The notes below the pieces were generated by a model. It had not been told where the DNA came from and searched no databases. It saw only the letters and a program-made list of their open reading frames with translations. A stretch of 64,000 bases of DNA from Microbacterium sp. ABRD28. GTDB taxonomy: Bacteria; Actinomycetota; Actinomycetes; Actinomycetales; Microbacteriaceae. How positions within the stretch are numbered: the first letter of the stretch is position 1; each line of letters starts with the position of its first letter. Shown one piece after another: positions 5,875 to 54,145 of this stretch. The DNA lies in assembly GCF_003850245.1 (NCBI RefSeq), contig NZ_CP031015.1, forward strand, positions 2,914,001 to 2,978,000. The letters run 5' to 3'. The translations under genes and the position numbers were made by a program.

Positions 5875-5909
5875 CGTTCGCATTACGCACTTATGGTCGC
5901 TTCTCGCAC
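5875..5909. promoter_or_regulatory. Tandem operator pair A (19-bp pitch)
   Basis: Two direct copies of the regulon site: CGTTCGCATTACGCAC at 5875-5890 and TGGTCGCTTCTCGCAC at 5894-5909 (12/16 identical to the first). They sit in the 103-bp divergent gap between the class III aminotransferase and the aldehyde dehydrogenase, and cover the presumed transcription start of the leftward operon, which suggests repression. Confidence 0.65.
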
Positions 5910-5936
5910 ACTACCTCTATGCTGGGTGAGGATCAA
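5908..5936 (-). promoter_or_regulatory. Candidate promoter of the leftward aminotransferase operon
   Basis: On the minus strand TTGATC (-35-like, plus-strand 5931-5936) is followed after exactly 17 nt by TAGTGT (-10-like, 5908-5913). Initiation would fall just downstream, inside the tandem operator pair. Assigned by eye only. Confidence 0.4.
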
Positions 5937-5976
5937 ACACCACCTTCTGTTCGGTCCGGAAAGGACGAGGGCGCCC

Positions 5977-7443
5977 ATGTCCACACCAGCGACGCTGATC
6001 GCCGACGATCTGCTACGTACCCAGCTTCACATCGCCGGCGGGTGGCGGGACGGTTCCGCCGGAGAGTCCTCCCCGGTCATCGATCCGGCCACCGGCGAGA
6101 CCGTCGCCGAGGTGGCCGTCGCGACCCCCGATGACATGGTGGCGGCGATCGACGCGGCGCAGGAGGCCTTCGCCAGCTGGTCGCGCACGCCGGCTCCGCA
6201 GCGCTCGCGCCTTCTGCGCCGCTGGTACGAGCTCATCGTCGAGCGCGCGGACGACCTCGCACAGCTGCTGACCGCCGAGCAGGGCAAGCCACTGGCCGAA
6301 GCGCGCGGCGAGATCCTCTACGGCGCCGGCTTCATCGAGTGGTTCGCCGAGGAGGCCAAGCGTCTCTACGGCGAGGTCATCCCGACCAACAACCCCGACC
6401 GCCGCATGATGACCATCCGCAGCGCCGTCGGCGTGACCGCGGCGATCACACCGTGGAACTTCCCGTGCGCGATGATCCTGCGCAAGGCCGCGCCCGCCCT
6501 CGCGGCCGGCTGCTCGATGATCATCAAGCCCGCCGAAGAGACGCCGCTGTCGGCCCTCGCCCTGGCCGCCCTCGCCCAGGAGGCGGGGATCCCCGCCGGC
6601 GTGCTGAGCGTCGTCACCGGGTCCGGCCCCCGCCTGGGCGAGGTGCTGACCCGTGACGAGCGCGTGCGCACCATCAGCTTCACCGGCTCCACCGAGGTCG
6701 GGCGCATCCTCATGGCCCAGTCGGCGGGCACCCTCAAGCGCCTGGCTCTCGAGCTCGGCGGGAACGCCCCCCTCATCGTCTTCGACGACGCCGACCTCGA
6801 CAACGCCGTCAAGGGCGCGATGGACTCGAAGTTCCGCAACGCCGGGCAGACCTGTGTGTGCGCCAACCGCATCTTCGTCCAGGACGGCATCCACGACGCG
6901 TTCGTCGAGGCGCTCGGCCGCGAGATGGCGAAGCTTCGGGTCGGCGACGGCCGCGAGCCCGGGACGACCCAGGGGCCCCTCATCTCCCCCGCCGCCGTCG
7001 ACAAGGTCCGCCGCCACATCGACGACGCCCGAGACAAGGGCGCCCGCGTCGTGCAGGGCGGCGATCTCACCGAGCGAGGACGCACGTTCTTCACCCCCAC
7101 CCTCATCGTCGACGCGAGCCCCGACATGCTGCTCGCGCGCGAGGAGACCTTCGGACCGCTCGCCCCCGTCATCCGCTTCTCCACCGAGGAGGAGGCCATC
7201 CGGATGGCCAACGACACCGAGTTCGGCCTCGCCGGGTATTTCTTCAGCCGCGACATCGGACGCATCACGCGGGTGTCCGAAGCCCTCGAGGTCGGAGTGG
7301 TCGGTGTCAACACGGGCCTCATCTCCTATGAGGGCGCGCCCTTCGGCGGGGTGAAGCAGTCGGGCATCGGCCGCGAGGGCTCGCGGCACGGGATCGAGGA
7401 GTACACCGACCTGAAATACATCTGCATCGAGGGCGTCGCGTGA
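5977..7443 (+). CDS. NAD(P)-dependent aldehyde (succinate-semialdehyde-type) dehydrogenase
   Basis: A 488-residue aldehyde dehydrogenase of the GabD type. PWNFPCAMILRK contains Asn161, IIKPAEETP contains the cofactor Lys184, LELGGNAP contains general-base Glu259, and GQTCVCANR contains catalytic Cys293. The start is the ATG after AAGGACGAGG; an earlier in-frame ATG would put the N-terminus across the operators and promoter. It oxidises a semialdehyde to the acid, probably the product of the divergent aminotransferase or of the DHDPS-family lyases (alpha-ketoglutarate semialdehyde is a possible alternative substrate). An IclR gene follows 90 nt downstream. A second, differently built aldehyde dehydrogenase in the putrescine cluster suggests separate substrates. 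Confidence 0.88.
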   Translation: MSTPATLIADDLLRTQLHIAGGWRDGSAGESSPVIDPATGETVAEVAVATPDDMVAAIDAAQEAFASWSRTPAPQRSRLLRRWYELIVERADDLAQLLTAEQGKPLAEARGEILYGAGFIEWFAEEAKRLYGEVIPTNNPDRRMMTIRSAVGVTAAITPWNFPCAMILRKAAPALAAGCSMIIKPAEETPLSALALAALAQEAGIPAGVLSVVTGSGPRLGEVLTRDERVRTISFTGSTEVGRILMAQSAGTLKRLALELGGNAPLIVFDDADLDNAVKGAMDSKFRNAGQTCVCANRIFVQDGIHDAFVEALGREMAKLRVGDGREPGTTQGPLISPAAVDKVRRHIDDARDKGARVVQGGDLTERGRTFFTPTLIVDASPDMLLAREETFGPLAPVIRFSTEEEAIRMANDTEFGLAGYFFSRDIGRITRVSEALEVGVVGVNTGLISYEGAPFGGVKQSGIGREGSRHGIEEYTDLKYICIEGVA

Positions 7444-7533
7444 CCCGGATGCCGCGGGGCGGCCGGTCCACGGCTGAGGCGGATTGATATGGTGATCCCA
7501 CTTTCCGCCGACGTCACAGAGGAACGTAGCGCG

Positions 7534-8337
7534 ATGACCGACACCGAGACCGACCGCAAGTCGGGCGAGTTCATCCAGTCCCTGGATCGCGGGCTCGCCG
7601 TCATCCGCGCCTTCTCCAACGAACGCGACCTGCTGTCCCTGGCCGACGTCGCCAAGATCACCCACCTCAGCCGCGCATCGGTGCGCCGGGCGCTGTTGAC
7701 CCTCGAGACCCTGGGGTACGTCGGCAGCCGTCAGAACCGGTTCTACCTGCGCCCTCGGGTGCTCGACCTCGGCTACGCGTTCCTGTCGTCCTCGAGCCGG
7801 ATCGACATCATCCAGGACCACCTGCGGCGACTGTCGGCGCAGATCGGCGAGTCGGTGTCGGCGTGCGAGTACGACGACGGCGATGTGGTCTACGTCGCCC
7901 GCGCCGCGACCGAGACGATCATGCCCATCCGCCTGGGAATCGGCCGGCGGCTGCCCGCCTTCTGCACCTCGACCGGACGGGTGCTGCTCTCGGAGTTCGA
8001 TGACGCCGCGCTCGATGAGTACTTCCGCACCTATCCGCGCGAGAAGCTCTCCCCCGCGACGATCGTCGACGAGCAGGAGTTGCGCGAACGCATCGCCGAG
8101 GTCCGTCAGCAGGGCTGGGCGCTGAACAACCAGGAGGTCGACCTCGGCGCGCGTTCCGTCGCGGCCCCCGTCATCGGCGCCGACGGTCGTTACGTCAGCG
8201 CGGTGAACCTCTCGGTGTCGACCTCTCGGGTCTCGGTCGAGCAGCTCGTCACCGACTACCTCCCGCAGCTGCTCGACGCCACCCGCGCCATGAGCGCGGA
8301 CCTCGCGCTGCTGGACCGGCGCAAGACCTACGAGTGA
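7534..8337 (+). CDS. IclR-family transcriptional regulator (PcaR/PcaU-like subgroup)
   Basis: About 267 residues. The N-terminal winged helix reads SLDRGLAVIRAFSNERDLLSLADVAKITHLSRASVRRALLTLETLGYV, in the style of PcaR/CatR/PobR regulators of aromatic catabolism; the C-terminal IclR effector domain includes ARAATETIMPIRLGIGRRLPAFCTSTGRVLL. The ATG is chosen for AGAGGA upstream; an in-frame ATG 45 nt earlier is possible but has a weaker site. The family binds palindromic DNA, often as tetramers on paired sites. Tandem operators at six promoters in this window have arms GTTCG/CGCAC, like the PcaR site I recall, making this protein the best candidate regulator (inference). No such site lies in its own 90-bp upstream gap, so it may be co-transcribed with the dehydrogenase gene. 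Confidence 0.88.
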   Translation: MTDTETDRKSGEFIQSLDRGLAVIRAFSNERDLLSLADVAKITHLSRASVRRALLTLETLGYVGSRQNRFYLRPRVLDLGYAFLSSSSRIDIIQDHLRRLSAQIGESVSACEYDDGDVVYVARAATETIMPIRLGIGRRLPAFCTSTGRVLLSEFDDAALDEYFRTYPREKLSPATIVDEQELRERIAEVRQQGWALNNQEVDLGARSVAAPVIGADGRYVSAVNLSVSTSRVSVEQLVTDYLPQLLDATRAMSADLALLDRRKTYE

Positions 8338-8357
8338 TCCCCTCGTAGATCGCATCA

Positions 8358-8395: not shown

Positions 8396-9478
8396 GTGCC
8401 TCGTCTGTCTCCGCGCCTGTTCGACCCCATCACCGTCGGCGGCCTGACCGTTCCCCATCGTCTCTGGGTCGCTCCCATGTGCCAGTACTCCTCGGTCGAC
8501 GGCATGCCCGGCGAATGGCATCTGGTCCACCTCGGCTCGTTCGCCATCGGGCGCGCCGGCCTCATCATGACCGAGGCCGCGGCGGTCTCGCCCATCGGAC
8601 GCATCACGCCCGACGACGCGGGCATCTGGAACGACGACCACACCGCCGGATGGCGGCGTGTGGTCGATTTCGTCCACGGCATGGACGGCCTGATCGGCAT
8701 CCAGCTGTCGCACGCCGGGCGGAAGGCCTCGACCTATCCCCCGACGCGAGGGCGCGGATCGGTGCCGGCGTCCGAGGGCGGGTGGACCACGGTCGGGCCG
8801 TCAGCGGTCGCGTGGGGACCGTTCACGCCGCCGGTCGAACTCGACCGCGAGGGGATCGCGCGCATCGTCGCGGAGTTCGGCGATGCCGCTGCGCGATCGG
8901 TGGAGGCCGGCTTCGACCTCGTCGAGATCCATGCGGCGCACGGATACCTGCTGGGCCAGTTCCTGTCCCCCACCTCCAACCTCCGCACCGATGAGTACGG
9001 CGGCGACGTCGCGGGGCGCTCGCGCATCGTGCGCGAGGTCGTCGAGGCCGTGCGTGCGCGCGTTCCGTCCGAGATGCCCGTGGTGCTGCGCGTGTCGGCG
9101 TCGGAGTGGGTGCCGGGCGGGGTCACCGTCGACGACACCATCGCTGCGCTCCACCTGATCGAGGGTGTCGACCTCGTGAGCGTGTCCTCCGGGGGGAACA
9201 ATCCCGACCAGGCCATCCCCTCCGGGCCCGGTTACCAGCAGCCGCTCTCGCGCGCCGTACGCGCCGCGATCGACGCTCCGGTCGGTGTGGCGGGCCTGAT
9301 CACCACCCCCGAGCAGGCCGAGGCGGCGCTCGGGGCGGAAGACACCGACGTCGTCTACGTCGCCCGGCAGTTCCTGCGCGAGCCGACGTTCGCCCTGCGC
9401 GCGGCGGCGGCGCTCGGCGGTGAGCTGGCGTGGCCGTGGCAGTACAACCGCGCGAAGTACGTCGAGAGCATCCCCTGA
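8396..9478 (+). CDS. Old Yellow Enzyme-family NADH:flavin oxidoreductase (YqjM-like)
   Basis: A 360-residue FMN-dependent TIM-barrel ene-reductase. Typical positions are VAPMCQYSS with Cys29, as in the thermophilic/YqjM subclass, QLSHAGRKA with His106, EIHAAHGYLLGQFLSPTSNLRTDEYGG with His179 and His182 for substrate binding, and the FMN phosphate region near VGVAGLITTPEQAEAAL. It would reduce an activated C=C bond of an enone- or enoate-type intermediate with NAD(P)H. The start is GTG, 7 nt after AAGGA. It follows the IclR gene on the same strand and converges on the [2Fe-2S] gene. I see no tandem operator in the 58-bp upstream gap. Confidence 0.92.
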   Translation: MPRLSPRLFDPITVGGLTVPHRLWVAPMCQYSSVDGMPGEWHLVHLGSFAIGRAGLIMTEAAAVSPIGRITPDDAGIWNDDHTAGWRRVVDFVHGMDGLIGIQLSHAGRKASTYPPTRGRGSVPASEGGWTTVGPSAVAWGPFTPPVELDREGIARIVAEFGDAAARSVEAGFDLVEIHAAHGYLLGQFLSPTSNLRTDEYGGDVAGRSRIVREVVEAVRARVPSEMPVVLRVSASEWVPGGVTVDDTIAALHLIEGVDLVSVSSGGNNPDQAIPSGPGYQQPLSRAVRAAIDAPVGVAGLITTPEQAEAALGAEDTDVVYVARQFLREPTFALRAAAALGGELAWPWQYNRAKYVESIP

Positions 9479-9515: not shown

Positions 9516-9839
9516 TCAGTGGGCGATGTCGGGCTCCGGCTCGCCGGCACCGGCTCCCACCTGGTGCTCGACGGTCATCCCTTCGCGCACCCACGTCATG
9601 CAGGTGCGGGTCTGCGGCACTCCGTCGACCACCATCGTGCAGTCGAAGCACACCCCCATGCCGCAGAAGTATCCGCGCGGGGCGCCGCCCTCGGTCAGGC
9701 GCAGGGCCAGCGTCTCGGCGGCCATGACGGCGGCGGCGACGCTCTCACCCTCGTAAGCGGTCACCGCGACGCCGTCCACGACGATGTCGACCGGACGGCC
9801 GCGCTCCAGCCCGTGGCCGGGCAGCCTGCGGCCGCTCAC
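9516..9839 (-). CDS. (2Fe-2S)-binding protein, HcnA-like small subunit
   Basis: About 107 residues with a plant-type ferredoxin motif CGMGVCFDC plus a later TRTC: Cys59, Cys64, Cys67 and Cys80 (C-x4-C-x2-C-x12-C). This is the small subunit found in HcnABC-like flavoprotein dehydrogenases such as opine, D-hydroxyproline or proline dehydrogenases and cyanide synthase. The GTG start overlaps the stop of the DHDPS-family gene (GTGA); the frame stays open far upstream, but there it only shadows that gene. The matching B and C subunits are fused in the 897-residue protein two genes upstream. In the second module the equivalent domain is fused to subunit B. Confidence 0.87.
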   Translation of the reverse strand: MSGRRLPGHGLERGRPVDIVVDGVAVTAYEGESVAAAVMAAETLALRLTEGGAPRGYFCGMGVCFDCTMVVDGVPQTRTCMTWVREGMTVEHQVGAGAGEPEPDIAH

Positions 9840-10780
9840 GCGGTCACCCGATCCGGTGCGAGCAGCCCCTCCTCCTGGAGGATCGATCGCATCGTGCGAA
9901 GGTCGTCGGCGTCGGTGATGGGCAGCCGCGGTCGGCGCACGTGGCCCGCCGGCTGATCCAGCATGTGCATCAGGGCCTTCAGCTGCGCCTGGTACGAGCC
10001 GAACTGCCCCGCCCAACCGCCGGGAAGCCACAGCTTCGGGAACAGACGGTCCGATCGTTCGGCGTGCGCGCGCATCCGATCGACGTCGCCCGCCCAGTGG
10101 TCCTCCCAGAACTGCGGATCCGGTCGGCCGTAGAGCGAACCGCCCCCGACGGTGCCGTCGCCGCCCTCGCTGCGGAGCACCTCGACCCCTCGCGCCGACA
10201 TGTACGGACCGAAGACCCGTACCCGATCGCGCACGCGCCGCGACGTCTCGAAGAACTGATCGGCGTCCGGCGTGGAGTCCTTGATCGCCACGACGGCATC
10301 GACGTCGGCCAGGCGGTCGGCCAGCTCCGTGCCGATGTCGATGCCGGTCCCGTGCGGCCAGTTGTAGACCACCACGGGCGCTCGGAGCGACGCGCCGATC
10401 TCCTCGTACCAGGCGACGACCTCGTTCGGGAAGAGCTTGATGTACGGCGGCGGCGAGACGAGCACGCCGTCGACGCCGGCATCGATCGCATGACGGCCGA
10501 GGGCCTGGACATTGGCGGCGGTGTTCGACGTGCATCCCACCAGAACGCGGAGCCGGCCACGCGCGGCAGCGACCGCGGTCTCGGCAACCTGCCGTCGCTC
10601 GTCCTCGCTCTGCGAGAACCACTCGCCGCAGGTGCCGTTCACGACCACGCCGTGCATGCCGCGGTCGGCGTACTGATCGATCAGCGCGTGGAGGGTGGGC
10701 AGGTCGAGTTCGCCGGTCTCGGTGAAGGGGGTGACGACGGCGGGGTAATAGCCGGCCCAGTCGACATCGTCGCGGTTCAT
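9836..10780 (-). CDS. Dihydrodipicolinate synthase-family lyase/deaminase (module 1)
   Basis: A 314-residue class I aldolase-fold protein of the DapA/NanA family. The Schiff-base lysine is in VVAIKDSTPD (Lys167) and the proton-relay Tyr139 in VVVYNWPHGTG; GTTGE is changed to GTCGEW at about 49-54. ATG follows a GAGGAG site. The changes and the catabolic operon argue against lysine biosynthesis. In hydroxyproline catabolism a member of this family deaminates the cyclic imine made by an HcnABC-like dehydrogenase, and here the gene sits between parts of just such a dehydrogenase. A lyase or deaminase step after amine/imino-acid oxidation is therefore likely, but the substrate is unknown. Confidence 0.85.
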   Translation of the reverse strand: MNRDDVDWAGYYPAVVTPFTETGELDLPTLHALIDQYADRGMHGVVVNGTCGEWFSQSEDERRQVAETAVAAARGRLRVLVGCTSNTAANVQALGRHAIDAGVDGVLVSPPPYIKLFPNEVVAWYEEIGASLRAPVVVYNWPHGTGIDIGTELADRLADVDAVVAIKDSTPDADQFFETSRRVRDRVRVFGPYMSARGVEVLRSEGGDGTVGGGSLYGRPDPQFWEDHWAGDVDRMRAHAERSDRLFPKLWLPGGWAGQFGSYQAQLKALMHMLDQPAGHVRRPRLPITDADDLRTMRSILQEEGLLAPDRVTA

Positions 10781-10805
10781 CAGGCAGTGCTCCTCAGGGT
10801 TGTTG

Positions 10806-13499
10806 TCATCGCGTCGGTGCCGAGGCGATGGTGCGGTCCAGCGAGAACCGGGTCGGGAATCGGGAGGCGGTGCGCGCGGGATCGACGATGGACTCGGCGA
10901 CCTGGCGGGCGTAGATCGGGGAGAAGGTGAAGCCGGTCGAGGCGACACAGGCGTGATAGCCGGGCACCCGCTCGGACTCTCCGACGATCGGCGAGTAGTC
11001 GTCGGTGAAGGCGATGACCCCCGACCACGTGCGCACGACACGGACGTCCTCGAGCTGCGGGACGACGTCGAGGGCCACTCGCAGATTGCCTGCGGCGCTG
11101 CGCCAGGTGGTCGGATAGCGGCGCGGGTAGCCCGTCGCCGGGCTCGGCCACCCGCCGCCGATGATGAACGACCCGTGATGGGTCTGCTTGAGGGTGAGCC
11201 GGCGGCCGATGTGCTGGATCATGGAGGGCAGGAGAGGCCTGCGCGCCTCGGTGACGTTGACGTGCAGACCCTCGCGCCTGATGGGGAAGTCCAGTCCCAC
11301 CATCGCGCCGATCTCGCCCGCCCAGCCGCCTGCGCAGTTGACGATGTGGCGCGCACGGATGACACCGGCGCTCGTCGTCACTCGGAAGCGGAACGAGGAG
11401 TCGGACTCGTCGACCTCGATGGCGAACACCTCGGTGTCCACGCGGAACCGCGCGCCGTGCTCTCGCGCCCTCCGGGCGTACAGCGGCGCGACGATGAGCG
11501 GATTGGCATGACCCTCGAGGTCGCAGTAGGTCGCCCCGAGCACGCGATCGGAGAAGTACGGGGCACGGGCGCGCAGCGCCGCACCTTCGAGCACCTCGGT
11601 GTGGATGCCCGCTTCCTCCTCGAGAAGGTGCTTCTCGTGAAGGAGGGCGAGCTGCTCCGGCGTCTCGGCGACCATCCAGCCGCCGGTCTGATGGAGCCCG
11701 ACATCGGCGCCGAGCTCCTGGGAGAGAGACGTCCACAGCGCATAGGCCTCGACGCTCGCCCGCGCGTCGCTGAGAAGCCGCGACCGATCGGCCTCGGTGC
11801 CCTTCCCAGAGAGCTGATGAATGGCGAGTTGGAAGTGGAAGCTGCCGGCGTTGGTCCCGGATGCTTCGCGGTTGAGCTGGCCGCGATCGAGCAGTTCCAC
11901 CTCGACACCTTCGCGGGCGAGGTAGTAGGCGACGGCCGCACCGGCGATGCCGCCGCCGATGACGAGGACGTCAGTGTCGGTCAGCGGGTCGCGTGGCCGG
12001 CTCGCGAGGTCGCCCGGGGCGAGGTCGGTGCGCTCGGGTTCGACGGGATCGTCTTCCCCCGCCTGGAACAGGCCCGGATCGGCCACGTCGGCATCGGCGA
12101 TCGCGCCGATCGGCACGGGCCGCGCAGGCATTCGCGGGGTGGCCGGCATCACCGTCGCCGGGGCCACGCCCTTCTCCCCCGCGATCAGGGCGGCGATGTG
12201 CCGGCCGCACATCCGGCCCTGGCACGGACCCATGCCCGCACGGGTGAGCGCCTTGACGGCGCTGACGTCGGGTGCTTCGGCGACCGCGGCACGGATCTCG
12301 CCTTCGCGGACGCCCTCGCAACGGCAGACGACGGTGTCGTCCTCGGCGAGGTCGAAGATCCCCTCGCCCACGTGGTACATCCGGGTGGTCGCGCGGGTGA
12401 GCGCCCGGCGCCGGCTGATCCGGCGACGCAGGCCCTCGATCGCCGGGCTGTCGACGGATGTGCCGATGTCCTGCGTCACGGCGAGCGCCGCGAGGCGCCC
12501 CTCGTCGGCGGCCACGGCGGATCCTTCGACGCCCGCGCCGTCACCGGCGACATAGATGCCGGCGACATCGGTGCGGCCGAGGTCGTCGCGGTGCACGACG
12601 GGGCCGCCGAGATCCTCGTCGATGTCGAAACGGCAGCCGACGAGCCGCAAGAGCTCGGCACTGGGGGTGAACCCGTAGCCGATGCAGAGGATGTCGGCCT
12701 CGATGCTCTCCTCGGTACCGGGAAGCACGCGCCACCGCTCGTCCACGCGCGCGTGGACGACGCGTTCGACGCGCCCTTCACCCTCGGCGCGCACGACGAT
12801 GCGCCGATACTTCAGTGGGATCCCGCGACGCAGCAGGGTCGCCTGGTACCGCGCGGCGTCGCCGAGCAGGCCGACGTTGCCCGGGGCGGCGGCGGCGATC
12901 CGGGCGAGGTCGGTGACGGATGGTGCGGGCCCGGCCTCGAGCGCGGTGACGATGTTGGCGCCGTATCCGGCCAGCTGCGCGGGGAAGGCGAGGGCGACCG
13001 GACCGGAGCCTGCGAACACCACCCGGTCTCCCGGGACGAAGGACTGCGTCTTGGCCAGGGTCTGCAGACCGCCGGCGGTGATGACACCGGGGAGATCCCA
13101 GCCGGGGAAGACGACCGGACGGTCGTGCGCTCCCGTCGCGAGGATGACCGCTCGCGCACGGAGCGGAACGACGGCGCCGTCTTCGGGGTGGACCATGGCC
13201 GTCCACCCCGTCTCGGACGGCTCGAGATCCACCACGCTGGAGCGAAGCCGCACCGTCGCCCCCGAGGCCTCGACCTCGTCGATGAGACTCCGACCCTGGC
13301 GGTACTGCTTCCCCATCTCGCGGGCGTTCACCACCTGCATCCCGGGACCCGGCTGCTTGTACACCTGCCCACCGAGGGTCGGACGCTCGTCGATGAGCAC
13401 CGCATCCAGTCCGCGCGTCGCCGCGGTCGCGGCGGCGGCCATGCCGGCCGGACCGCCCCCGATGATCAGGACGTCGTGCACGTGCTCATCGACGGTCAT
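10806..13499 (-). CDS. HcnB-HcnC-type fusion flavoprotein (amine/imino-acid dehydrogenase large subunit)
   Basis: An 897-residue two-enzyme fusion. The N-terminal half is an HcnB-like FAD/NAD(P)-fold oxidoreductase, with GGGPAG at 14-19, a second nucleotide motif VVFAGSGPVAL near 160-170, and a BFD-type [2Fe-2S] site CRCEG...CQGRMC (Cys392, Cys394, Cys426, Cys431). A Pro/Ala/acid-rich linker at about 450-505 leads to a DadA/HcnC-like oxidase with GGGIAG at 515-520 and the C-terminal motif TFSPIYARQVAES. In related systems these are separate alpha and beta subunits passing electrons through FAD, FeS and FMN. It is followed 25 nt later by the DHDPS-family gene and preceded by an amino-acid importer. 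It would oxidise an amino or imino acid imported by that transporter. Confidence 0.9.
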   Translation of the reverse strand: MTVDEHVHDVLIIGGGPAGMAAAATAATRGLDAVLIDERPTLGGQVYKQPGPGMQVVNAREMGKQYRQGRSLIDEVEASGATVRLRSSVVDLEPSETGWTAMVHPEDGAVVPLRARAVILATGAHDRPVVFPGWDLPGVITAGGLQTLAKTQSFVPGDRVVFAGSGPVALAFPAQLAGYGANIVTALEAGPAPSVTDLARIAAAAPGNVGLLGDAARYQATLLRRGIPLKYRRIVVRAEGEGRVERVVHARVDERWRVLPGTEESIEADILCIGYGFTPSAELLRLVGCRFDIDEDLGGPVVHRDDLGRTDVAGIYVAGDGAGVEGSAVAADEGRLAALAVTQDIGTSVDSPAIEGLRRRISRRRALTRATTRMYHVGEGIFDLAEDDTVVCRCEGVREGEIRAAVAEAPDVSAVKALTRAGMGPCQGRMCGRHIAALIAGEKGVAPATVMPATPRMPARPVPIGAIADADVADPGLFQAGEDDPVEPERTDLAPGDLASRPRDPLTDTDVLVIGGGIAGAAVAYYLAREGVEVELLDRGQLNREASGTNAGSFHFQLAIHQLSGKGTEADRSRLLSDARASVEAYALWTSLSQELGADVGLHQTGGWMVAETPEQLALLHEKHLLEEEAGIHTEVLEGAALRARAPYFSDRVLGATYCDLEGHANPLIVAPLYARRAREHGARFRVDTEVFAIEVDESDSSFRFRVTTSAGVIRARHIVNCAGGWAGEIGAMVGLDFPIRREGLHVNVTEARRPLLPSMIQHIGRRLTLKQTHHGSFIIGGGWPSPATGYPRRYPTTWRSAAGNLRVALDVVPQLEDVRVVRTWSGVIAFTDDYSPIVGESERVPGYHACVASTGFTFSPIYARQVAESIVDPARTASRFPTRFSLDRTIASAPTR

Positions 13500-13502
13500 C
13501 GA

Positions 13503-14363: not shown

Positions 14364-14415
14364 AACGGTTTCCAATCGTTCGGATGGGTGGGAGTGCTCG
14401 AAGGGTCGAGAGGGA

Positions 14416-17876: not shown

Positions 17877-17883
17877 GAACGCC

Positions 17884-19733: not shown

Positions 19734-19742
19734 AGTCGGCCC

Positions 19743-45687: not shown

Positions 45688-46620
45688 TCACAGTCCGAGC
45701 TGGCGGGTCACGTCGTCCAGCTCGTCGATCACGACGCCGATGCGCCCGAGACGCTCTTCGCCCTCCGCTCCCAGCTGCGCGAACGTCGTCAGCGGCGGGC
45801 GCACCGTGCCCATCGGGAAGCCGGCTCGCTCGGCAAGCCGCTTGGAGTAGCACTGGTGACCGTAGGTGGGGTGCCCCGCGGCGATGATCGCGTCGAACCG
45901 CTTGATCAGATCGTCGATCCGTCGAGCATCCTCGATGCGTCCTTCCTCCAGCAGACCCCAGATTCCCGCGGAAGCGCGGGGGATGTAGTTGCCGTACGGA
46001 TTGACGTACCCCTTCGCGCCCAGGAGGTAGGAGTCCACCACCCGCTCACCCGCGTAGACGGTGATGGCGTCACCGGCGAGGTCGATCACGTCGCGCACGC
46101 GCGCGATGTCCTGGGAGGACTCCTTGATGTACGAGATCGTGGCGAAGTCCTTCGCCAGACGCGCGACGAGCTCAGCGCTCATGTCCACGTTCGAGGTGAC
46201 GGGATTGTTGTAGAGCATGATCGGCAGATCGACCGCTCCGACGATCGCTTCGTAGTGACGATAGATCTCGTCGTCGGTGGGCGTGTAGTAGTAGGGGGGC
46301 ACGATCATCAGGCCGTCCGCCCCGAGGTCCTGCGCCTCGACGCTGAACTGCACCGCCCGTGTCGTGGAGGCGTCGGCTGTGCCGACGAGCACGGGAATCC
46401 GCCCGTCGATGTGCTCGACGGTCGCCCCCACCAGCTCGCGACGCTCTTCCGGCGTGACCGACAGGAACTCGCCCGTCGTTCCGAGCATGATGATTCCGGG
46501 AACGCCCTCTGCGAGCTGCCAATCGAGGAACGCACGCAGCCGGTCGAGGTCGATCCGGCTGAGGTCGTCGGTGAAGGGCGTGACCGCGACGGTGTAGGAA
46601 CCCGAGAAAGTGGCGGGCAT
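45688..46620 (-). CDS. Dihydrodipicolinate synthase-family lyase/deaminase (module 2)
   Basis: A 310-residue DapA/NanA-family protein with MLGTTGEFLSV (GTTGE at 47-51), the relay Tyr137 in IMLYNNPVTSN and the Schiff-base Lys166 in ISYIKESSQD. It retains the canonical GTTGE, unlike the module-1 paralogue (GTCGE), so the two are probably not redundant. The catabolic neighbours, a DadA/HcnC-type oxidase starting 59 nt away in the other direction and an HcnA-HcnB-type fusion, argue for action on an imine or oxo acid released by that dehydrogenase. Confidence 0.87.
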   Translation of the reverse strand: MPATFSGSYTVAVTPFTDDLSRIDLDRLRAFLDWQLAEGVPGIIMLGTTGEFLSVTPEERRELVGATVEHIDGRIPVLVGTADASTTRAVQFSVEAQDLGADGLMIVPPYYYTPTDDEIYRHYEAIVGAVDLPIMLYNNPVTSNVDMSAELVARLAKDFATISYIKESSQDIARVRDVIDLAGDAITVYAGERVVDSYLLGAKGYVNPYGNYIPRASAGIWGLLEEGRIEDARRIDDLIKRFDAIIAAGHPTYGHQCYSKRLAERAGFPMGTVRPPLTTFAQLGAEGEERLGRIGVVIDELDDVTRQLGL

Positions 46621-46679: not shown

Positions 46680-47837
46680 ATGTTGGATCGGAAGCATCCC
46701 GGGCATGTCTTCGATGTCGCGGTGGTCGGTGGCGGCGCGAGCGGAGCTTCGGCGACCTACCATCTGAGCCGAGCCGGACTCGATGTGGTGCTCCTGGACC
46801 GCAACGATCTCAATACCGAGGCGTCTGGGCGAAACGCCGGAAGCCTCCACGGTCAGATCCAGCACGAGCCGTTCCTGGAGGAAGGTGCCGAGTGGGCGGA
46901 GGCGTGGCTGCCCGCACTGCGATTCCTGGCCGACTCCCTCACGCTCTGGGACGATCTGAGCGACGACCTGGGCACGGATCTGCAGGTGGCCAAGAAGGGC
47001 GGCATCCTCGTCGCAGACGACGTGAGCCAGCTCGCCGCGATCGAGCGGAAGGTCGCGCTCGAGAATCGGATCGGCATTCCCAGTCGGATGCTGTCCGCCG
47101 ACGAACTCCGAAGCCTCGCGCCGTGGCTCAGCGATGCCGTCGTCGGCGGAGAGCTGTGCCCCATCGAGGGGAAGGCGAATCCCCTGCTCGTCGCGCCGGC
47201 CTTCGCGCGCCGCGCCGTCGAGGCAGGAGCCCTCGTACGCACCCAGACCCCGGCGGTGGGCTTCGATCGCGACGGCGACACGCGCGTCATCCGGACCCCC
47301 GGCGGTGATGTGCGGGCGCGGCGCGTCGTCCTCGCGGGAGGGGACGGGATGCCGGACCTGGCCCGCCACTTCGACCTCGACCTGCCGATCTCGAGCGGCG
47401 CGGTGCAGGTGAGTGTCACCGAGCGCGTCGATCCGATGGTGGCGCACCTGTTCTACTACGCCGGCGGAAAGCTGACCTTCAAGCAGGCGCAGTCCGGCAC
47501 CCTGCTCATCGGCGGCGGATGGCCGGCCCGGCGCAATGCCGCCGGGGAATGGGTCGTCAACCCCGACTCGCTGCGTGCGAACCTGGCGATGGCGATCCGC
47601 ATCGCCCCGATGATCGCCGACCTCGCCCTCCTTCGCACCTGGACCGGCATCGGCAACGGAACCCCCGACCACAGCCCGATCATCGGCCCCGTGACGGCCG
47701 AGGGCGACGTCGTCGTCGGGTTCTATCCGTACATGGGCTTCACGGCGGCCCCCCTCATGGGGCGGATCCTCGCCGATCTGGCCCAGGGCAAGGATCCGGG
47801 ACTCGACCTCGCGCCGTTCGCCCCGACCCGGTTCTGA
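46680..47837 (+). CDS. DadA/HcnC-like FAD-dependent amino/imino-acid oxidase subunit (module 2)
   Basis: A 385-residue DAO-fold flavoprotein: FDVAVVGGGASGASATYHLSRAGLDVVLLDRNDLNTEASGRNAGSLHGQIQ is the FAD-binding N-terminus, and HSPIIGPVTAEGDVVVGFYPYMGFTAAPLMGRILADLAQG the typical C-terminus. It is the free-standing counterpart of the C-terminal half of the module-1 fusion: both share LNxEASGxNAGSxHxQ near the FAD site and LTFKQ/LTLKQ followed by a GGGWP motif. It should oxidise an amino or imino acid and pass electrons to the HcnA-HcnB-type protein encoded convergently 30 nt away. ATG start. Confidence 0.9.
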   Translation: MLDRKHPGHVFDVAVVGGGASGASATYHLSRAGLDVVLLDRNDLNTEASGRNAGSLHGQIQHEPFLEEGAEWAEAWLPALRFLADSLTLWDDLSDDLGTDLQVAKKGGILVADDVSQLAAIERKVALENRIGIPSRMLSADELRSLAPWLSDAVVGGELCPIEGKANPLLVAPAFARRAVEAGALVRTQTPAVGFDRDGDTRVIRTPGGDVRARRVVLAGGDGMPDLARHFDLDLPISSGAVQVSVTERVDPMVAHLFYYAGGKLTFKQAQSGTLLIGGGWPARRNAAGEWVVNPDSLRANLAMAIRIAPMIADLALLRTWTGIGNGTPDHSPIIGPVTAEGDVVVGFYPYMGFTAAPLMGRILADLAQGKDPGLDLAPFAPTRF

Positions 47838-47867: not shown

Positions 47868-49583
47868 TCACCCCTGGGCGACGTCCCCGAGCGGAACCGG
47901 CTTGACCGGGGCCTGCGGGGCGAACCCGGAGCGCTCCGCGACGGCGACACCGGTGCGCGCAGCCTGCATCGCCGTGAGGACCGGTCCGCAGTACCGCCCC
48001 TGGCATTTGCCCATGCCGGCGCGCGTGACGCGCTTGACCGCGCCGGCCGTCGTCACGCCGTCGGTCATCGACTCGGCGAGGTCGCCGTACGTCGTGCCTT
48101 CGCAACGGCAGACCACCGTGTCGGGCCGGGCGAGCTGGTCGGTGAGGACCGGGGCGGCGAACAGCGTGTTGACGGCCCGCTGGAACGCCGCCTGACGGCG
48201 TGCGTCCGCCGCCGCCTGCCGCGGGGCGCCCGACGGCTCGCCCCGGAGGTCTCTGCGGATGGCGGCCGCAGCCAGTTTCGCCTGCGCCTGGGCGAACTTC
48301 GCGCCGCGCACGCCGGCAGTGTCTCCGATCGCGAAGACCGACTCGATCGATGTGCGGCCGTCACCGTCGGTGACCGTGCGCAACGCTCCGCGGGCCGCAT
48401 CCACCTCGTGCCGGCACCCGAGCGATCGTGCGAGATCGTTTCCCGGGAGGAAGCCGTAGCCGAGACACACCGCGTCGACGTCGAAGGAACGGAGCTCCCG
48501 CGTCATCCGCCCCTGTTCATCGATGCGCCCGATGTTCGCGCGGGAGACACCGTCTGCGGGATCCCCCTCGAGCCCCACCACGGCCGCGCCGGTGATGATC
48601 GGAACCCGGCGCGCGGTCAGCTCGGCGAGGTAACGGACGCCGTCGGCGGTGAGACCGGGGACCGCGAGGGCCATGCGCGCGACCGCGGCTGCCCGAAGCG
48701 GCGAGAAGATCCGCGCGGCCTCGACCAGCGCGACGACGTTCACTCCCCCGCGCGACAGCTCAGCGGCCAGCTGGACGTTCAAGGGGCCGTTCCCCGCCAC
48801 GAGGACACGGTCGCCGGGGGAGACCTGGTAGGACCGGAGCAGGGTCTGGCCGGCACCGGTGGTCATGACACCCGGGAGGGTCCACCCCGGGATCGGCGCG
48901 CCGCGCTCATAGGCGCCGGCGGCGATCACCACGCGTCGGGGGCGGATGATCCAGCGCTCCCGCTCCGACCGCGCGAGGAGGCGATCGGGCTCGAAGGCCG
49001 CCCACACCGTGGTGCCGAGGAGGGTACGCACCCCCGCGGTCTGAGCCGCGCGGATCAATCGGCGACCCGCGGTGTACTGCCCGTCCAGGCGGTCCTCGTC
49101 GACGTGGAACGCCGGGTCGGGCTGCTTGTAGTACTGCCCTCCGAGCTTCGGACGATCATCGACCAGCAGCACATCCAGACCCGCTGCGGCGAGATCTGTC
49201 GCAGCGACGAGACCTGCGGGCCCGGCCCCGATGACGAGGACGTCGGGCTCGATCTCGGTCTCGGGGCGCGCCGGGGCCGACGCGACGGGAACCCGACGCC
49301 GGGGCGGTTGGGTCTCGACGATCTGGCCGTCCCGCGCGGGGGTCATGCAGGCGAGCCGGGCATCCTCGCCATCGATGCGCACCGCGCACTCATGACACAC
49401 GCCCATGCCGCACCAGATCCCGCGCCGACCGCCCGTGTCATCGGCGCGATTGCCCCGCTCTCCCGCCGCGACCATCGCGCTGGCGACCGAGTCGGTGGCG
49501 GTGACGGGCACGGTGCCGCCGTCGAAGCACAGCGCGCCATCGCCCTCCGCGTCGCCGCTGATGCCGGGGGTGGTCACTCTCAT
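47868..49583 (-). CDS. HcnA-HcnB-type fusion: [2Fe-2S] domain plus FAD oxidoreductase (module 2)
   Basis: About 571 residues. An N-terminal ferredoxin-like domain carries Cys58, Cys63, Cys66 and Cys79 (WCGMGVCHEC...LAC). It is joined to an HcnB-like oxidoreductase beginning DVLVIGAGPAGLVAA (about 114), with a second motif RVLVAGNGPLNVQLA and a BFD-type site CRCEG...CQGRYC near 490-530. It is the electron-transfer partner of the DadA-like oxidase. The ATG with GAGGAG upstream is chosen; an in-frame ATG 39 nt earlier would place coding sequence over the operators. In module 1 the same A and B domains are in separate polypeptides. Confidence 0.9.
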   Translation of the reverse strand: MRVTTPGISGDAEGDGALCFDGGTVPVTATDSVASAMVAAGERGNRADDTGGRRGIWCGMGVCHECAVRIDGEDARLACMTPARDGQIVETQPPRRRVPVASAPARPETEIEPDVLVIGAGPAGLVAATDLAAAGLDVLLVDDRPKLGGQYYKQPDPAFHVDEDRLDGQYTAGRRLIRAAQTAGVRTLLGTTVWAAFEPDRLLARSERERWIIRPRRVVIAAGAYERGAPIPGWTLPGVMTTGAGQTLLRSYQVSPGDRVLVAGNGPLNVQLAAELSRGGVNVVALVEAARIFSPLRAAAVARMALAVPGLTADGVRYLAELTARRVPIITGAAVVGLEGDPADGVSRANIGRIDEQGRMTRELRSFDVDAVCLGYGFLPGNDLARSLGCRHEVDAARGALRTVTDGDGRTSIESVFAIGDTAGVRGAKFAQAQAKLAAAAIRRDLRGEPSGAPRQAAADARRQAAFQRAVNTLFAAPVLTDQLARPDTVVCRCEGTTYGDLAESMTDGVTTAGAVKRVTRAGMGKCQGRYCGPVLTAMQAARTGVAVAERSGFAPQAPVKPVPLGDVAQG

Positions 49584-49600
49584 CCGCGTCTCCTCTGTCT

Positions 49601-49635
49601 CGTTCGCAGGACGCACGTTCATTCGCCATACGAAC
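49601..49635. promoter_or_regulatory. Tandem operator pair C
   Basis: CGTTCGCAGGACGCAC at 49601-49616 (14/16 to the reference site) and CATTCGCCATACGAAC at 49620-49635 (12/16), 19 bp apart. They lie between the leftward HcnA-HcnB fusion and the rightward SDR unit. Confidence 0.65.
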
Positions 49636-49687: not shown

Positions 49688-49744
49688 ATGACCCGTCCGC
49701 CTGCTGATCTCCCCACGTCCGACCGCGTCGGCGGTGGACGATGA
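49688..49744 (+). CDS. 18-residue upstream ORF coupled to an SDR gene
   Basis: A short open frame MTRPPADLPTSDRVGGGR starts at an ATG 5 nt after a perfect GGAGG (49678-49682). Its TGA overlaps the ATG of the SDR gene (ATGA), while the SDR itself has only a weak site. The ribosome is probably loaded at the short ORF and re-initiates on the SDR. It is not rich in any one amino acid, so classical attenuation is unlikely. It could also be a spurious frame with the SD serving a leader. Confidence 0.5.
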   Translation: MTRPPADLPTSDRVGGGR

Positions 49745-50505
49745 GCGGGCTGGCGGGACGGACGATCCTCGTCACGGGCGCGTCCGGCGGGATCGGCCGC
49801 GCAACAGTCGAGCGGCTCGCGTCGACCGGCGCCCGGGTCATCGGGCATTGCCGCTCGAATCCCGAGGGGGCCCTGGAGGCCATCGCCGCTTTCCCCGAGG
49901 GAAAAGCCACGATCGTCCAGGCCGACCTCGCCGACCCGCAGGGCGCATCCGACCTGTGGCAGGCCGCTCTGGACTGGGCGGGACGGATCGACGTGGTGGT
50001 TCTGAATGCGGCGATGATGCCCAAGGTCGAGCTCGATGACACCGACGACGCGTGGAACGACACCTTCGAACAGGCCCTGCAGGTCAACACGCTCAGCCAG
50101 CTCACCCTCATCCGACGGTCGTTGGCGCACTTCCTGACCGAGGGCGGCGGCACGATCGTCGGACTCAGCAGTTGGGTGACACAGCGGGGAGCGGGAAACC
50201 CCAACCTCGTCGCCTACGCCGCTTCGAAGGCGGCGACGGCCGCGGCTCTGAAGACGGTCGCCCGCGCGTACGCAGCCGACGGCGTCCTGACCTACCTGAT
50301 CGCCCCCGGCGCCGTGGACACCGCGATGTCCGCCTCAGCGGGAGCCGACCGCGGCGGGCGCGACGCCGTGCTGCAGACGCTCGCCATGGGCGAGATGGTC
50401 CCGCCGGCCGAGATCGCCGAGCTCATCGCGCTGCTGGCCGGCGGTCGGGTTCGCCATCTGAGCGGCGCCACGCTCGACGTCAACGGCGCCACGTACGTGC
50501 GCTGA
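49741..50505 (+). CDS. SDR-family oxidoreductase (paralogue of 17884-18642)
   Basis: A 254-residue classical SDR: TGASGGIG (12-19), NAAM in place of NNAG, Ser143 and YAASK (Tyr159, Lys163). It resembles the SDR at 17884-18642 along its whole length, including the SSW segment and the NGATYVR C-terminus. It converges with the unusual SDR at 50516-51184, 10 nt away, and is expressed from the operator-C region. Likely interconverts hydroxy and oxo forms of a pathway intermediate. Confidence 0.92.
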   Translation: MSGLAGRTILVTGASGGIGRATVERLASTGARVIGHCRSNPEGALEAIAAFPEGKATIVQADLADPQGASDLWQAALDWAGRIDVVVLNAAMMPKVELDDTDDAWNDTFEQALQVNTLSQLTLIRRSLAHFLTEGGGTIVGLSSWVTQRGAGNPNLVAYAASKAATAAALKTVARAYAADGVLTYLIAPGAVDTAMSASAGADRGGRDAVLQTLAMGEMVPPAEIAELIALLAGGRVRHLSGATLDVNGATYVR

Positions 50506-50515
50506 CCTGCTGATC

Positions 50516-51184
50516 TCAGCGGGTGCCGACGCGCTCTTCGATGCGTTCGATGACGCTCCACCCCGACTCGATCACCACGAGGGCGCCGGTGACGTGTCGC
50601 GAGACATCGGAGGCGAGGAAGCGCAGCGCCGTCTCATCCTGATCGCCGGCGGGCGCCAGGGCGTTCACCCGCACACCGTGGGGCTGGAGCTCCTGAGCGA
50701 ACTCCCGCACCATCTGATTGATCGCCTCCGAGGTCATCGCGCGCGTGCCGCGTTCCCCGCCCGTCGCGGCACGAGTCCCCGAGTAGGCGATGATCGATCC
50801 GCGACCCCGGGCGGCCATCGCGGGAGCGAAATGGCGAAGCGCTGCCCAGCACGACGCGACCTCGGCGGCGAACGCATCGACGAGGTCCTGTTCCGCCGTC
50901 ATCGGGACAGCCGTGGTCGATCCGGCATCGGCGCAGTGGATCAGCACCTCGGTGTCGTCGAACTCCGCGGCCAACCGCTGCACGTGGGTGCCGTCGGTGA
51001 CGTCGGCTTCCCACACCTGGAAGCGGTCATCGGCGCCGAAGGCGGCCTCGAGCTGCGCGACATCCTCGTCGGCGACGATCACGCGCGCCCCGTGCCCCGC
51101 GAGCGTGCGCGCCGCCGAGCGCCCCATGGCGCCCGCGGCACCGAGGACCAGCACGGTGCGGCCGGTCAGGTCAGGGGCGGACAT
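50516..51184 (-). CDS. SDR-fold protein lacking the catalytic Tyr-Lys pair
   Basis: A 222-residue SDR-like protein with a Rossmann start VLVLGAAGAMGRSAARTLAGHGARVIVADED and the later SDR segments GRGSIIAYSGTR and GVRVNALAPAGDQDE. The active-site helix reads RAMTSEAINQMV: the position of the Tyr is Ala149 and that of the Lys is Glu153. Most likely it is not a standard oxidoreductase, and may be a binding, scaffolding or differently active protein. It is preceded by a tandem operator pair and lies 128 nt after the amino-acid importer genes. Confidence 0.82.
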   Translation of the reverse strand: MSAPDLTGRTVLVLGAAGAMGRSAARTLAGHGARVIVADEDVAQLEAAFGADDRFQVWEADVTDGTHVQRLAAEFDDTEVLIHCADAGSTTAVPMTAEQDLVDAFAAEVASCWAALRHFAPAMAARGRGSIIAYSGTRAATGGERGTRAMTSEAINQMVREFAQELQPHGVRVNALAPAGDQDETALRFLASDVSRHVTGALVVIESGWSVIERIEERVGTR

Positions 51185-51312: not shown

Positions 51313-52125
51313 TCATGGGAAAGATTCGCCGGCATCCTCCGCGGAGCGCGTGTCGAGGATTCGGGAGAGGAAGCGTCGGGTGCGCTCCTCCACCGGGCGA
51401 TCGAGCACCTCTGCCGCACTGCCGCTTTCCACGATCCGTCCGTCGTCCATGAACACCACCCGGTCGGCGACCTCCCGCGCGAACTCGATCTCATGCGTGA
51501 CGACGATCATCGTCAATCCCTCGGACGCGAGGCGCCGCATGACGGAGAGCACCTCCCCGACGGTCTCGGGATCAAGGGCCGAGGTGGGCTCGTCGAAGAG
51601 CATGACGCGCGGGCGCATGGCCAGAGCCCGGGCGATCGCCGCGCGCTGCTGCTGACCGCCGGAGAGCTGCCGCGGGTAGGCCGACTCCTTGCCGCTCAGC
51701 TGTACCCACTCCAGCAGCTGTCGCGCATGGGTCTCCGCCTCGGCACGCGGGGTGCGCAGCACCTGGATCGGAGCTTCGATGATGTTCTGCAGCACCGTCA
51801 TGTGACCGAAGAGATTGAAGTTCTGGAACACCATGCCGATCTCGGTGCGCTGACGTGCGAGCTCCGCCGGGGCGATCTCGATGAGATGGCCCCGGCTCTC
51901 ACGCACCCCCACCGGCTCGTCACCGAGCCATACGATCCCCGCGGTCGGGGTCTCGAGGTGGTTGATGCAGCGCAGCAGCGTGGACTTCCCCGACCCGGAT
52001 GGACCGATCACGCAGACGACCTCGCCGCGGAAGACCTCGAGATCGACGGCATGGAGGACCGCAAGCGATCCGAAGCTCTTGCTCACCGATTGCAGACGGA
52101 TGACGGGATCGACGATCGTTGTCAT
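51313..52125 (-). CDS. Amino-acid ABC transporter ATP-binding protein (module 2)
   Basis: About 270 residues: Walker [11 protein letters not shown]-loop [13 protein letters not shown], signature [34 protein letters not shown], switch [11 protein letters not shown] HisP/GlnQ-type ATPase. The ATG overlaps the permease stop by 4 nt; the longer frame runs into the permease. Counterpart of the module-1 ATPase at 15192-15983. Confidence 0.93.
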
Positions 52126-53138
52126 ACCGGCGCCTTCTCTTTCAGCCCCGAAGAGGGCGTGGTGCGGGGAAGGAGCTTGCGCAGCTTCTGGGCGTACGTG
52201 TCGGGAGCGCTGCGGGTGGCGCCGCGCGCGTAGTACTTCTCGATGTAGTGCTGGCCGATGGAGAGCACGGTCGTCAGCACGAGGTACCAGATGCACGCCA
52301 CCACCAGAAGCGGGATGGTCTCGAACGTACGCGCGTAGATCACCTGGACGGTGTAGAGAAGCTCACTGATGGCGACGATGCTGACCAGGCTCGTTCCCTT
52401 GAGCATCGAGATCACCTGGTTGCCCGTCGGTGGGACGATGACCCGCATCGCCTGCGGCAGGACGATGCGCCGCATCGCGCGACGGCGCGACATGCCGAGC
52501 GCGGCCGCAGCCTCACTCTGGCCCTGATCGACCGATTGGATGCCGGCACGGATGATCTCGGACATGTACGCACCCTCGTTCAGCCCGAGCCCGAGCAGCG
52601 CGGCGATGAGGGAGCTGACCACCGTGTTGGTGTCCCATTCGAACCACTGCGGGCCGAACGGGATCCCGAGGGTGAGCTTGGGGAGGAAGCTGGCGAGGTT
52701 GTACCAGAACAGCAGCTGCACCAGCAGGGGCGTCCCCCGGAACAGCCAGATGTAGCCATCGGCCGCCACGTTGAACAGCAGGCTGTTCGAGATCTTCATC
52801 AGGGCGAGGATCAACCCGATGAGGCAGCCGAGCACCATCGCGACCGCGGTGAGGAACAGGGTCAGGCCGACCCCCTGAAGCACGCGGGCACTGAACAGGT
52901 ACTCGCCGACGACATCCCACCGCATGGCATCGGCGGTGAGGAACTTCGAGATGATCTCGAGCACGAACAGCACCAGCAGGATGCGCAGCGCCCAGCCCGC
53001 GGCCTTCAGAGCGATCTGGCGCCCGGTGGTGGTCCGTACCCGCGGCCCCTCCGGACCTCGGCCGATCTGCAGCGTCGCCGTCAGCGGCCCCCGGCTCCGA
53101 CGATCGTCGGGTGCCTCATCTGTGCCGGTCGAGGTCAC
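52122..53138 (-). CDS. Amino-acid ABC transporter permease (module 2)
   Basis: About 338 residues with an extended Arg-rich cytoplasmic N-terminus of about 45 residues before the first helix. Family features: [42 protein letters not shown], the EAA loop [47 protein letters not shown] start overlapping the binding-protein stop. Forms a homodimeric channel. Confidence 0.93.
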
Positions 53139-54070
53139 TGCTCGACGCTCGGATTGACGACCGCCTCGTCGAGGAGGCCGAAATCGACATCCCAGCTGGT
53201 CATGATCGTCTCGTACGTCCCGTCCTCGATCAGCTGGTTCATGGCCGCCGCGATGGCCTCGGTCATGCCGGAGTCCTTCCCCACGGCCACGCCCTCGAGG
53301 TTCGGCTGGTAGTCCAGCGGCTGGATCTCGAGACCCTCGGCGCTGCTGTCCTCGCGCAGCAGCCACGAGAGCTGCCCCTTGGCGGTCATGAACGCGTCGA
53401 TGCGGTCGGAGCTGACGGCCAGCAGCGCCGCGCCCTGCTGCGGGAAGGAGTCGATGGTCGGAGCAGGCTCCCCGGCGTCTTCGCAGATGGCGACGATCTC
53501 CTCGATCTGGATGAGGAACGCCGAGCCCGCCAAGGCCCCGACACGCAGGCCGCAGAGGTCCTCCGGGGTGCTGATGTCCAGGCCCGCGTCCTCACTCGTG
53601 ATGACCCCGGTCGTGCTCTCGTGCACGGCGACGATGTCGACGACGTCGAGCCGCTCCTGCGTCACGATGATCGACGCCCAGGAGCTGTCGAATCGGCCGT
53701 TATCGATCCCCGGGATGAATGTGTCGAACGCGCCCGACACCTCTGCGGTGTACTCCAATCCGAGGAGCGCTGCAGCCGCGCGACCGAGGTCAGGACCCCA
53801 TCCGGCGATCTCGTCGTTCTCGTCGAGGAACGTGTCGGCGGGGGCGTTGTCGAACTGGATGGCCGTCAGGGTTCCCCGTTCGGCCACGTCATCGGGCACA
53901 AGCGCGGCGAGCTCGTCGTTCGTCTCGATCGTGACTCCGGCGACCTCGATCGAGAGGTCCGAATCGCCGGCGTCCGCGGCGGAACCCGAGGTGCAGCCCG
54001 CGAGTGCGAGCCCGAGGGCGGAGAAGGCGGCAAGGCCGACGAGAACGCGGCGGGAGGCGGGGGTGTTCAT
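53135..54070 (-). CDS. Amino-acid ABC transporter substrate-binding lipoprotein (module 2)
   Basis: About 311 residues of the SBP_bac_3 type. ATG with GGAG upstream, signal segment and lipobox ALAGC (Cys26). Mature features: GTLTAIQFDNAPADTFLDENDEIAGWGPDLGRAAAALLGLEY and FIPGIDNGRFDSSWASIIVTQERLDVVDIV, typical pocket-forming strands. First gene of the module-2 importer operon, directly downstream of operator pair E. Ligand unknown; presumably the compound oxidised by the module-2 dehydrogenase. Confidence 0.92.
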   Translation of the reverse strand: MNTPASRRVLVGLAAFSALGLALAGCTSGSAADAGDSDLSIEVAGVTIETNDELAALVPDDVAERGTLTAIQFDNAPADTFLDENDEIAGWGPDLGRAAAALLGLEYTAEVSGAFDTFIPGIDNGRFDSSWASIIVTQERLDVVDIVAVHESTTGVITSEDAGLDISTPEDLCGLRVGALAGSAFLIQIEEIVAICEDAGEPAPTIDSFPQQGAALLAVSSDRIDAFMTAKGQLSWLLREDSSAEGLEIQPLDYQPNLEGVAVGKDSGMTEAIAAAMNQLIEDGTYETIMTSWDVDFGLLDEAVVNPSVEQ

Positions 54071-54110
54071 CGGGAGCTGCTCCTTCGAGGCATGACAACG
54101 GGGCGGGAAG

Positions 54111-54145
54111 TGTGCGTTATACGCACGAGTGTTCACTATGCGTTC
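54111..54145. promoter_or_regulatory. Tandem operator pair E over the module-2 importer promoter
   Basis: TGTGCGTTATACGCAC (54111-54126) contains the perfect palindrome GTGCGT-TAT-ACGCAC; TGTTCACTATGCGTTC (54130-54145) follows at 19 bp. A minus-strand TTGACT (54151-54156) beside them could be the -35 element, which would put both sites across the core promoter. Confidence 0.62.

Follow-up and report, generated by a model that had tools for sequence, protein, structure and literature searches.

Tandem palindromes at six promoters of Microbacterium sp. ABRD28 as predicted operators of a PcaR-like IclR regulator

In PMC8222616, regulators of the IclR family are described as using tandem sites 18–22 nt apart in 94 orthologous groups, and as forming tetramers whose dimers lie on one side of the DNA. 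Among the IclR-family regulators of the beta-ketoadipate pathway, PcaR of Corynebacterium glutamicum has the motif GTTCGC-N3-GCGAAC (a table in the same paper). PcaR of Pseudomonas putida has the motif GTTCGATAATCGCAC, responds to dicarboxylic acids, and represses or activates depending on the position of its site and on the promoter (PMC12455658). Here we describe tandem palindromes of this kind at six promoters, P1 to P6, of Microbacterium sp. ABRD28, within a window of 64,000 nt (the whole stretch analysed; NZ_CP031015.1, positions 2,914,001–2,978,000, plus strand) of a genome consisting of one 3.27 Mb contig. An original prediction had taken them for the sites of a scattered catabolic regulon and had left the binder unnamed. 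From the sequence comparisons given below, we consider it highly probable that the palindromes are operators of a PcaR-like IclR regulator encoded at 7489–8337, which would run P1–P6 as one regulon.

The window regulator and motif are related to PcaR and its sites, and the palindromes have the two-turn spacing of the IclR tandem-site groups; the motif class and this tandem spacing are already known (PMC8222616). Unlike those of PcaR, the window targets are genes for flavin dehydrogenases, short-chain dehydrogenases (SDRs), lyases and transporters, not pca genes, and a separate PcaR-like gene stands beside pcaFJI. The window can also be compared with the three-part flavin dehydrogenases OdhABC, D-hydroxyproline dehydrogenase (D-HypDH) and HcnABC, as these appear in PMC4575208. 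Judged by domain content, two window modules each carry the same Fer2, pyridine-redox/Fer2_BFD and DAO parts, and genes of the DHDPS family and for ABC transporters lie near them, as in OdhABC-type systems. In contrast to those systems, each of the two modules has its own way of fusing these parts, and the window open reading frames (ORFs) scanned showed no proline-racemase-type epimerase.

The main text of PMC8222616 does not contain the terms Microbacter, Leifsonia, Clavibacter, sarcosine, succinate-semialdehyde or opine. A literature search returned no paper joining PcaR, IclR and Microbacterium, and, among the papers listed for combinations of HcnABC, opine, hydroxyproline dehydrogenase and IclR, the one title that looked relevant was that of the study on opine dehydrogenase (PMC4575208). 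As far as searched, what appears to be new is the predicted assignment of the regulator to its targets, together with the putative pathway.

Operator sites and their frequency in the genome

The operator unit is a 15-bp palindrome, approximately GTTCGY-N3-RCGMAC, of which the window holds 14 copies at six promoters over 48 kb. Pairs occur at all six promoters, seven in total, and in each the starts of the two copies are exactly 19 bp apart. The four operators of P2 are spaced 19-21-19, the single 21-bp step being that from 16995 to 17016. P1 (5876–5909; copies at 5876 and 5895) lies between the aminotransferase operon on the minus strand and the operon on the plus strand that holds the genes for a succinate-semialdehyde dehydrogenase (SSADH), the IclR regulator and an OYE-family protein. 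P2 (16976–17049; copies at 16976, 16995, 17016 and 17035) separates a VOC/ABC-transporter operon (minus) from an SDR/3HCDH/HpaI operon (plus). P3 (46626–46659; copies at 46626 and 46645, the distal one weak) is placed between a DHDPS-family gene (minus) and a DAO-family gene (plus), and P4 (49602–49635; copies at 49602 and 49621) between a Fer2/pyridine-redox gene (minus) and SDR3 (plus). P5 (51235–51268; copies at 51235 and 51254) is upstream of SDR4 (minus), and P6 (54112–54145; copies at 54112 and 54131) precedes the gene for the family-3 solute-binding protein that belongs to an ABC transporter (minus).

With seven pairs at 19 bp and one step of 21, the arrangement agrees with the IclR-operator class GTNCG-N5-6-CGNAC with 18–22 nt between centres. 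Four of the 14 copies satisfy the strict motif GTKCG-N5-CGMAC, and 10 deviate from it at one to three of the ten fixed positions. All sites originally predicted as 16-bp elements were recovered, as was their spacing of about two helical turns, mostly 19 bp. Their core is 15 bp instead of 16 and starts one base later on the plus strand, and the minus-strand pair quoted as 46660/46641 is identical with 46626/46645.

We built a scoring matrix from 13 window copies, 46626 being left out, and ranked the copies by a leave-one-promoter-out procedure. Twelve of the 13 came within the top 15 window positions, and 5895 ranked 122nd. Among the copies previously listed as weak, 46626 is indeed so, and 51254 and 54131 belong to the twelve. 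One unpaired site of similar score (12.6), at 40816, falls within an ORF that encodes an ABC-ATPase domain. In the window scan, as had been stated, none of the putrescine, peptide, iron and lrp-ald blocks had a pair in front of it.

As background we took 20 segments of the same genome, each 20 kb long (400 kb in all, ∼12% of the genome), and called a pair when its two scores summed to 20 bits with each copy above 4. In this background no two copies qualified as a pair at spacings between 10 and 60 bp, against seven pairs at 19 bp in the window; since the matrix was built from window sites, the window count is partly by construction, which those of the background and of the relatives are not. 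Single sites of at least 14 bits numbered 0 in the background and 11 in the window. The same threshold gave 10 further pair calls at other spacings in the window, each using a strong copy of the six promoters. That 10 of 14 copies deviate from the strict motif would suit chance occurrence, or a dispersed repeat having no regulatory role. We rejected both on the empty 400-kb background and on the promoter alignments, in which the operator columns are far better conserved than their flanks (see below), and we give these readings next to no probability.

We also trained a 34-bp pair model on the window pairs and ran it over the whole genome (E-values up to 10). Among the best 150 of 237 first-look candidates, which were scored, it found nine places: the seven window (training) pairs and two others, at 314525 and 328464. 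Both are in the region of a second homologue of the regulator (C1:325116–325877, 49% identity; the only other one at E up to 1e-40), which is beside pcaF-, pcaJ- and pcaI-type genes. Pair 328464, 2.6 kb from that gene, is immediately before pcaI, and pair 314525, 10.6 kb from it, precedes an EmrB-like transporter gene (below the family cut-off). In this search, pairs outside the window were confined to the region of this pca-linked regulator, and the outcome that would have refuted the original prediction, pairs just as frequent inside genes, was not observed.

Conservation of the sites and the candidate regulator

Next to the window copies stand those at orthologous promoters, which we scanned with the window matrix around protein matches of at least 80 bits covering at least 30% (at some loci 40%) of the query length. 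In each of the nine other genomes in which the aminotransferase and SSADH genes stand together next to the regulator, the P1 pair was observed at 19 bp (G017, G094, G130, Plantibacter G321, Marseille-Q6648, M. rhizomatis, Leucobacter soli, Aeromicrobium Root472D3 and a Salinibacterium metagenome-assembled genome). The 19-21-19 spacing of P2 is kept in 7/7 other genomes where the region examined includes the VOC gene. The P3 and P4 pairs are each present in 5/5 other genomes with the respective gene pair in view, the distal copy of P3 being weak there too, and the P6 pair stands before the same gene in 7/7 other genomes with that gene in view. In five aligned promoter regions (4–5 genomes each), invariant columns amounted to 158 of 210 in the operator spans and 100 of 358 in the flanking DNA. 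The conservation at orthologous promoters that had been named as a test was therefore found, P5 excepted.

Four relatives have one more 19-bp pair, which lies past the P6 operon and has no equivalent in the window (G017:C11:173682, G094:C6:1405794, G130:C63:49201 and L165:16257); in three of these a SnoaL-like gene (39–41%) adjoins it. The cluster is also present in two records labelled Planococcus sp. APC 4015 (L161, L169), a label that looks wrong, the G130 counterpart being grouped in Microbacterium.

The most likely binder is the IclR-family gene at 7489–8337 (plus strand; start perhaps at 7534), 45 bp behind the SSADH gene of P1, whose product was the one full IclR-family protein in Pfam scans of the window ORFs (PF09339, 50.3 bits against a cut-off of 22; PF01614, 122.2 bits against 24). 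Its best PDB match is 2ia2, and the third, 8eju, is a Pca regulon regulator. Regulators of this type are rare: when 299 genomes belonging to the family were searched, only the window protein and that of G321 matched at E up to 1e-90, and the genus draw held four others above 85% identity.

From the comparison of 149 Microbacterium genomes, the own (training) genome included, we observed that the pairs go with this type of protein. The pair model (E up to 0.3, with stricter filters) matched 53 genomes, the IclR protein (E up to 1e-40) 55, and both 52 (Fisher p 2.7e-35, the genomes being related and the cases not independent). Pairs are thus present in 52/55 genomes with a close IclR homologue, the own genome among the 52, and in 1/94 without; among 16 chosen genomes the figures were 8/8 and 0/8. 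The matches are mostly near the homologue, G105, G090 and G074 being exceptions that have matches at distances of tens of kb or on a different contig. Under free spacing, 21 of 25 IclR-homologue loci had a pair and 23 of the 33 pair calls were at 19 bp, in a set that is not random, 23 loci coming from genomes with a known pair-model match.

The genus-wide link also bears on whether the pairs could be sites of an unrelated regulator travelling with the block, such as the Lrp-type gene beside P6. The lrp-ald genes do adjoin P6 in the window and are near the block in several relatives, but the association just described is with IclR homologues, and the motif is of the PcaR/PcaU/PobR class described in PMC8222616; we hold this alternative to be extremely improbable. 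In all, the absence of background pairs, the conservation at orthologous promoters and the genus-wide association with IclR proteins bear out the scattered catabolic regulon of the original prediction.

Several findings weigh against assigning the sites to the 7489–8337 protein. It scored 283.1 bits with TIGR02431 (PcaR/PcaU/PobR), missing the cut-off of 284.75 by 1.65, and so we call it PcaR-like and do not file it as a member of the subfamily. Copies 5895 and 46626 are weak by the matrix, and their support therefore comes from spacing and conservation. P5 (51235) was not found in place in the relatives, where a second IclR gene (∼69%) stands and the SDR4-like gene sits in the P6 operon. Several relatives hold two IclR paralogues in the region (86–89% and 68–70%), among which the duty may be shared. 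Three genomes (G004, G104 and G131) have the homologue and no pair match, the reverse being seen in G034 (E 0.299). M. kunmingense (G051, L156, 9986–10801) keeps a 92% regulator but lacks the cluster, and the ∼18 kb to each side of the gene contain no pair; this gene is perhaps an orphan after loss of its targets. Lastly, window-type and pca-type operators are hardly distinguishable (84 and 37 distinct copies, both orientations; per-position p 0.02–0.7, uncorrected). Separately, we note that the M. kunmingense regulator adjoins lrp-ald.

The similarity of the two operator types, with no position below p 0.02, leads to the pca-linked paralogue. The sites could belong to the 325116–325877 regulator, in which case the window genes would extend the beta-ketoadipate regulon; alternatively, each of the two regulators could bind both sets. 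The region of that gene has the same 19-bp pairs, one of them directly before pcaI, and 13 of the 19 residues in the putative recognition stretch are common to both proteins. However, G017, G094 and G130 keep P1–P4 and P6, and no pca-type paralogue was found in them at E up to 1e-40 (at most 16 of the 15–17 candidates per genome being scored). In addition, in the four searched genomes with only the ∼48% type, most pair matches are within 4 kb of an IclR homologue, one place in G074 being on another contig. Because the operators persist in G017, G094 and G130, where no such paralogue was found at that threshold, proteins of the window type are favoured as binders; we judged the paralogue unlikely as the sole binder, and consider this whole alternative improbable. 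The 325116–325877 regulator may also bind the window operators.

Target genes and the predicted pathway

With the 7489–8337 protein as the predicted binder, about 26 genes would fall under the six promoters. The original prediction had connected about 20, both HcnABC-like modules among them; both modules are among the predicted targets here too.

At P1, the first gene of the plus-strand operon encodes an SSADH-type aldehyde dehydrogenase (5977–7443, within ORF 5863–7443; TIGR01780, 687.4 bits against a cut-off of 646.35), and an OYE-family flavin oxidoreductase gene (8396–9478, plus; PF00724) is downstream of the regulator. The divergent operon starts with a class-III aminotransferase gene (4491–5873, minus; PF00202), followed by NAD-kinase-like, GcvPA-like and GcvPB-like genes (369–4564, minus; PF01513 and PF02347; PDB 1wyt_B and 1wyt_A). 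The latter three stay together in relatives having the P1 region.

From their layout, two operons are predicted at P2, with assignments from Pfam and NCBIfam. The minus-strand one (9516–16942) comprises the first HcnABC-like module, with genes for a VOC protein, an ABC transporter (ATPase, permease and solute-binding protein), a fused pyridine-redox/Fer2_BFD/DAO protein, a DHDPS-family protein and Fer2; the plus-strand one (17079–20507) has genes for two SDRs, a 3HCDH-type dehydrogenase and an HpaI-family aldolase. P3 is flanked by genes for a DHDPS-family lyase/deaminase (45688–46620, minus; PF00701) and the DAO-family FAD oxidoreductase of the second module (46680–47837, plus; PF01266), whose best PDB match is sarcosine oxidase beta. 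At P4 the fused Fer2/pyridine-redox/Fer2_BFD gene of that module (47868–49583, minus, within ORF 47868–49622; PF13510, PF07992 and PF04324) diverges from SDR3 (49741–50505, plus; PF00106). SDR4 (50516–51184, minus; PF13561) is at P5, and at P6 are the genes of an ABC transporter for a polar amino-acid-like substrate (51313–54070, minus; solute-binding protein, permease and ATPase; PF00497, PF00528 and PF00005). Module 1 thus joins the pyridine-redox/Fer2_BFD and DAO parts (10806–13499) and keeps Fer2 separate; module 2 joins Fer2 with pyridine-redox/Fer2_BFD (47868–49583) and has a separate DAO protein.

Two sets of genes that the window keeps ∼40 kb apart, aminotransferase, the GcvP-like pair and SSADH at one end and SDR3, Fer2/pyridine-redox and the ABC transporter at the other, are grouped around a single IclR gene in Leucobacter and Aeromicrobium, where both P1 and the region preceding the transporter gene have pairs. 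This grouping is the strongest evidence for a common function, and makes it very probable that one pathway is served by the scattered promoters. The Pfam, NCBIfam and PDB matches of the targets give enzyme classes only, and among the window targets scanned no pca family appeared as a leading match. Taken together, the enzyme families point to the import of an amino- or imino-acid-like compound, its oxidation by HcnABC/opine-dehydrogenase-like flavoenzymes, lyase steps, and exit via succinate semialdehyde.

Proposed mode of control and its implications

It is likely that one dimer of the regulator would bind each palindrome, and that the 19-bp pitch, about two helical turns, would set two dimers on the same face of the DNA as a tetramer; the divergent P2 region would take two such units. 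The regulator would control P1, the promoter of its own operon, and the remaining five. The genes under the six promoters, about 26, would serve to import one putative amino- or imino-acid-like compound and to oxidize it, by way of flavin dehydrogenases, lyases and dehydrogenases, towards succinate semialdehyde and succinate. By analogy with PcaR, the effector is likely to be a pathway intermediate, presumably a dicarboxylic acid.

The promoter geometry bears on the direction of control. A TATGCT hexamer follows the proximal site after 8–9 bp in 9/10 genomes at P1 (TAGAGT in the tenth) and in 5/6 at P4 (TAAGCT in the sixth), and TACGGT follows it after 7–8 bp in 6/6 at P3. With a −10-like hexamer 7–9 bp after it, the proximal site at P1, P3 and P4 occupies the −35 place, a geometry that would fit activation. 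At P6 a TTGAC box, kept in 4/4 aligned genomes, is upstream of the pair, and a pair downstream of such a box would fit repression. It is possible that activation and repression occur within one regulon. A search for one geometry common to all six promoters found none, the hexamer at 7–9 bp being a feature of P1, P3 and P4, not of P2, P5 and P6.

More tentatively, a regulator derived from PcaR could have taken charge, with hardly any change in its operator code, of a pathway so far undescribed in Actinomycetota and made up of two flavin dehydrogenase modules, GcvPA/GcvPB-like and NAD-kinase-like proteins, a class-III aminotransferase and an SSADH. The code would be common to the PcaR of the host, aromatic and amino-compound catabolism might be cross-wired, and the 19-21-19 region might work as one bidirectional switch; we regard this combination as a speculative possibility.

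The proposed assignment would tie one predicted regulator to about 26 genes of a pathway found in several actinobacterial genera, and it offers a short list of genes and promoters for a substrate hunt. It also points to a naturally occurring cell that has two paralogous regulators whose operators are nearly the same, a system in which insulation versus cross-talk would be directly testable.

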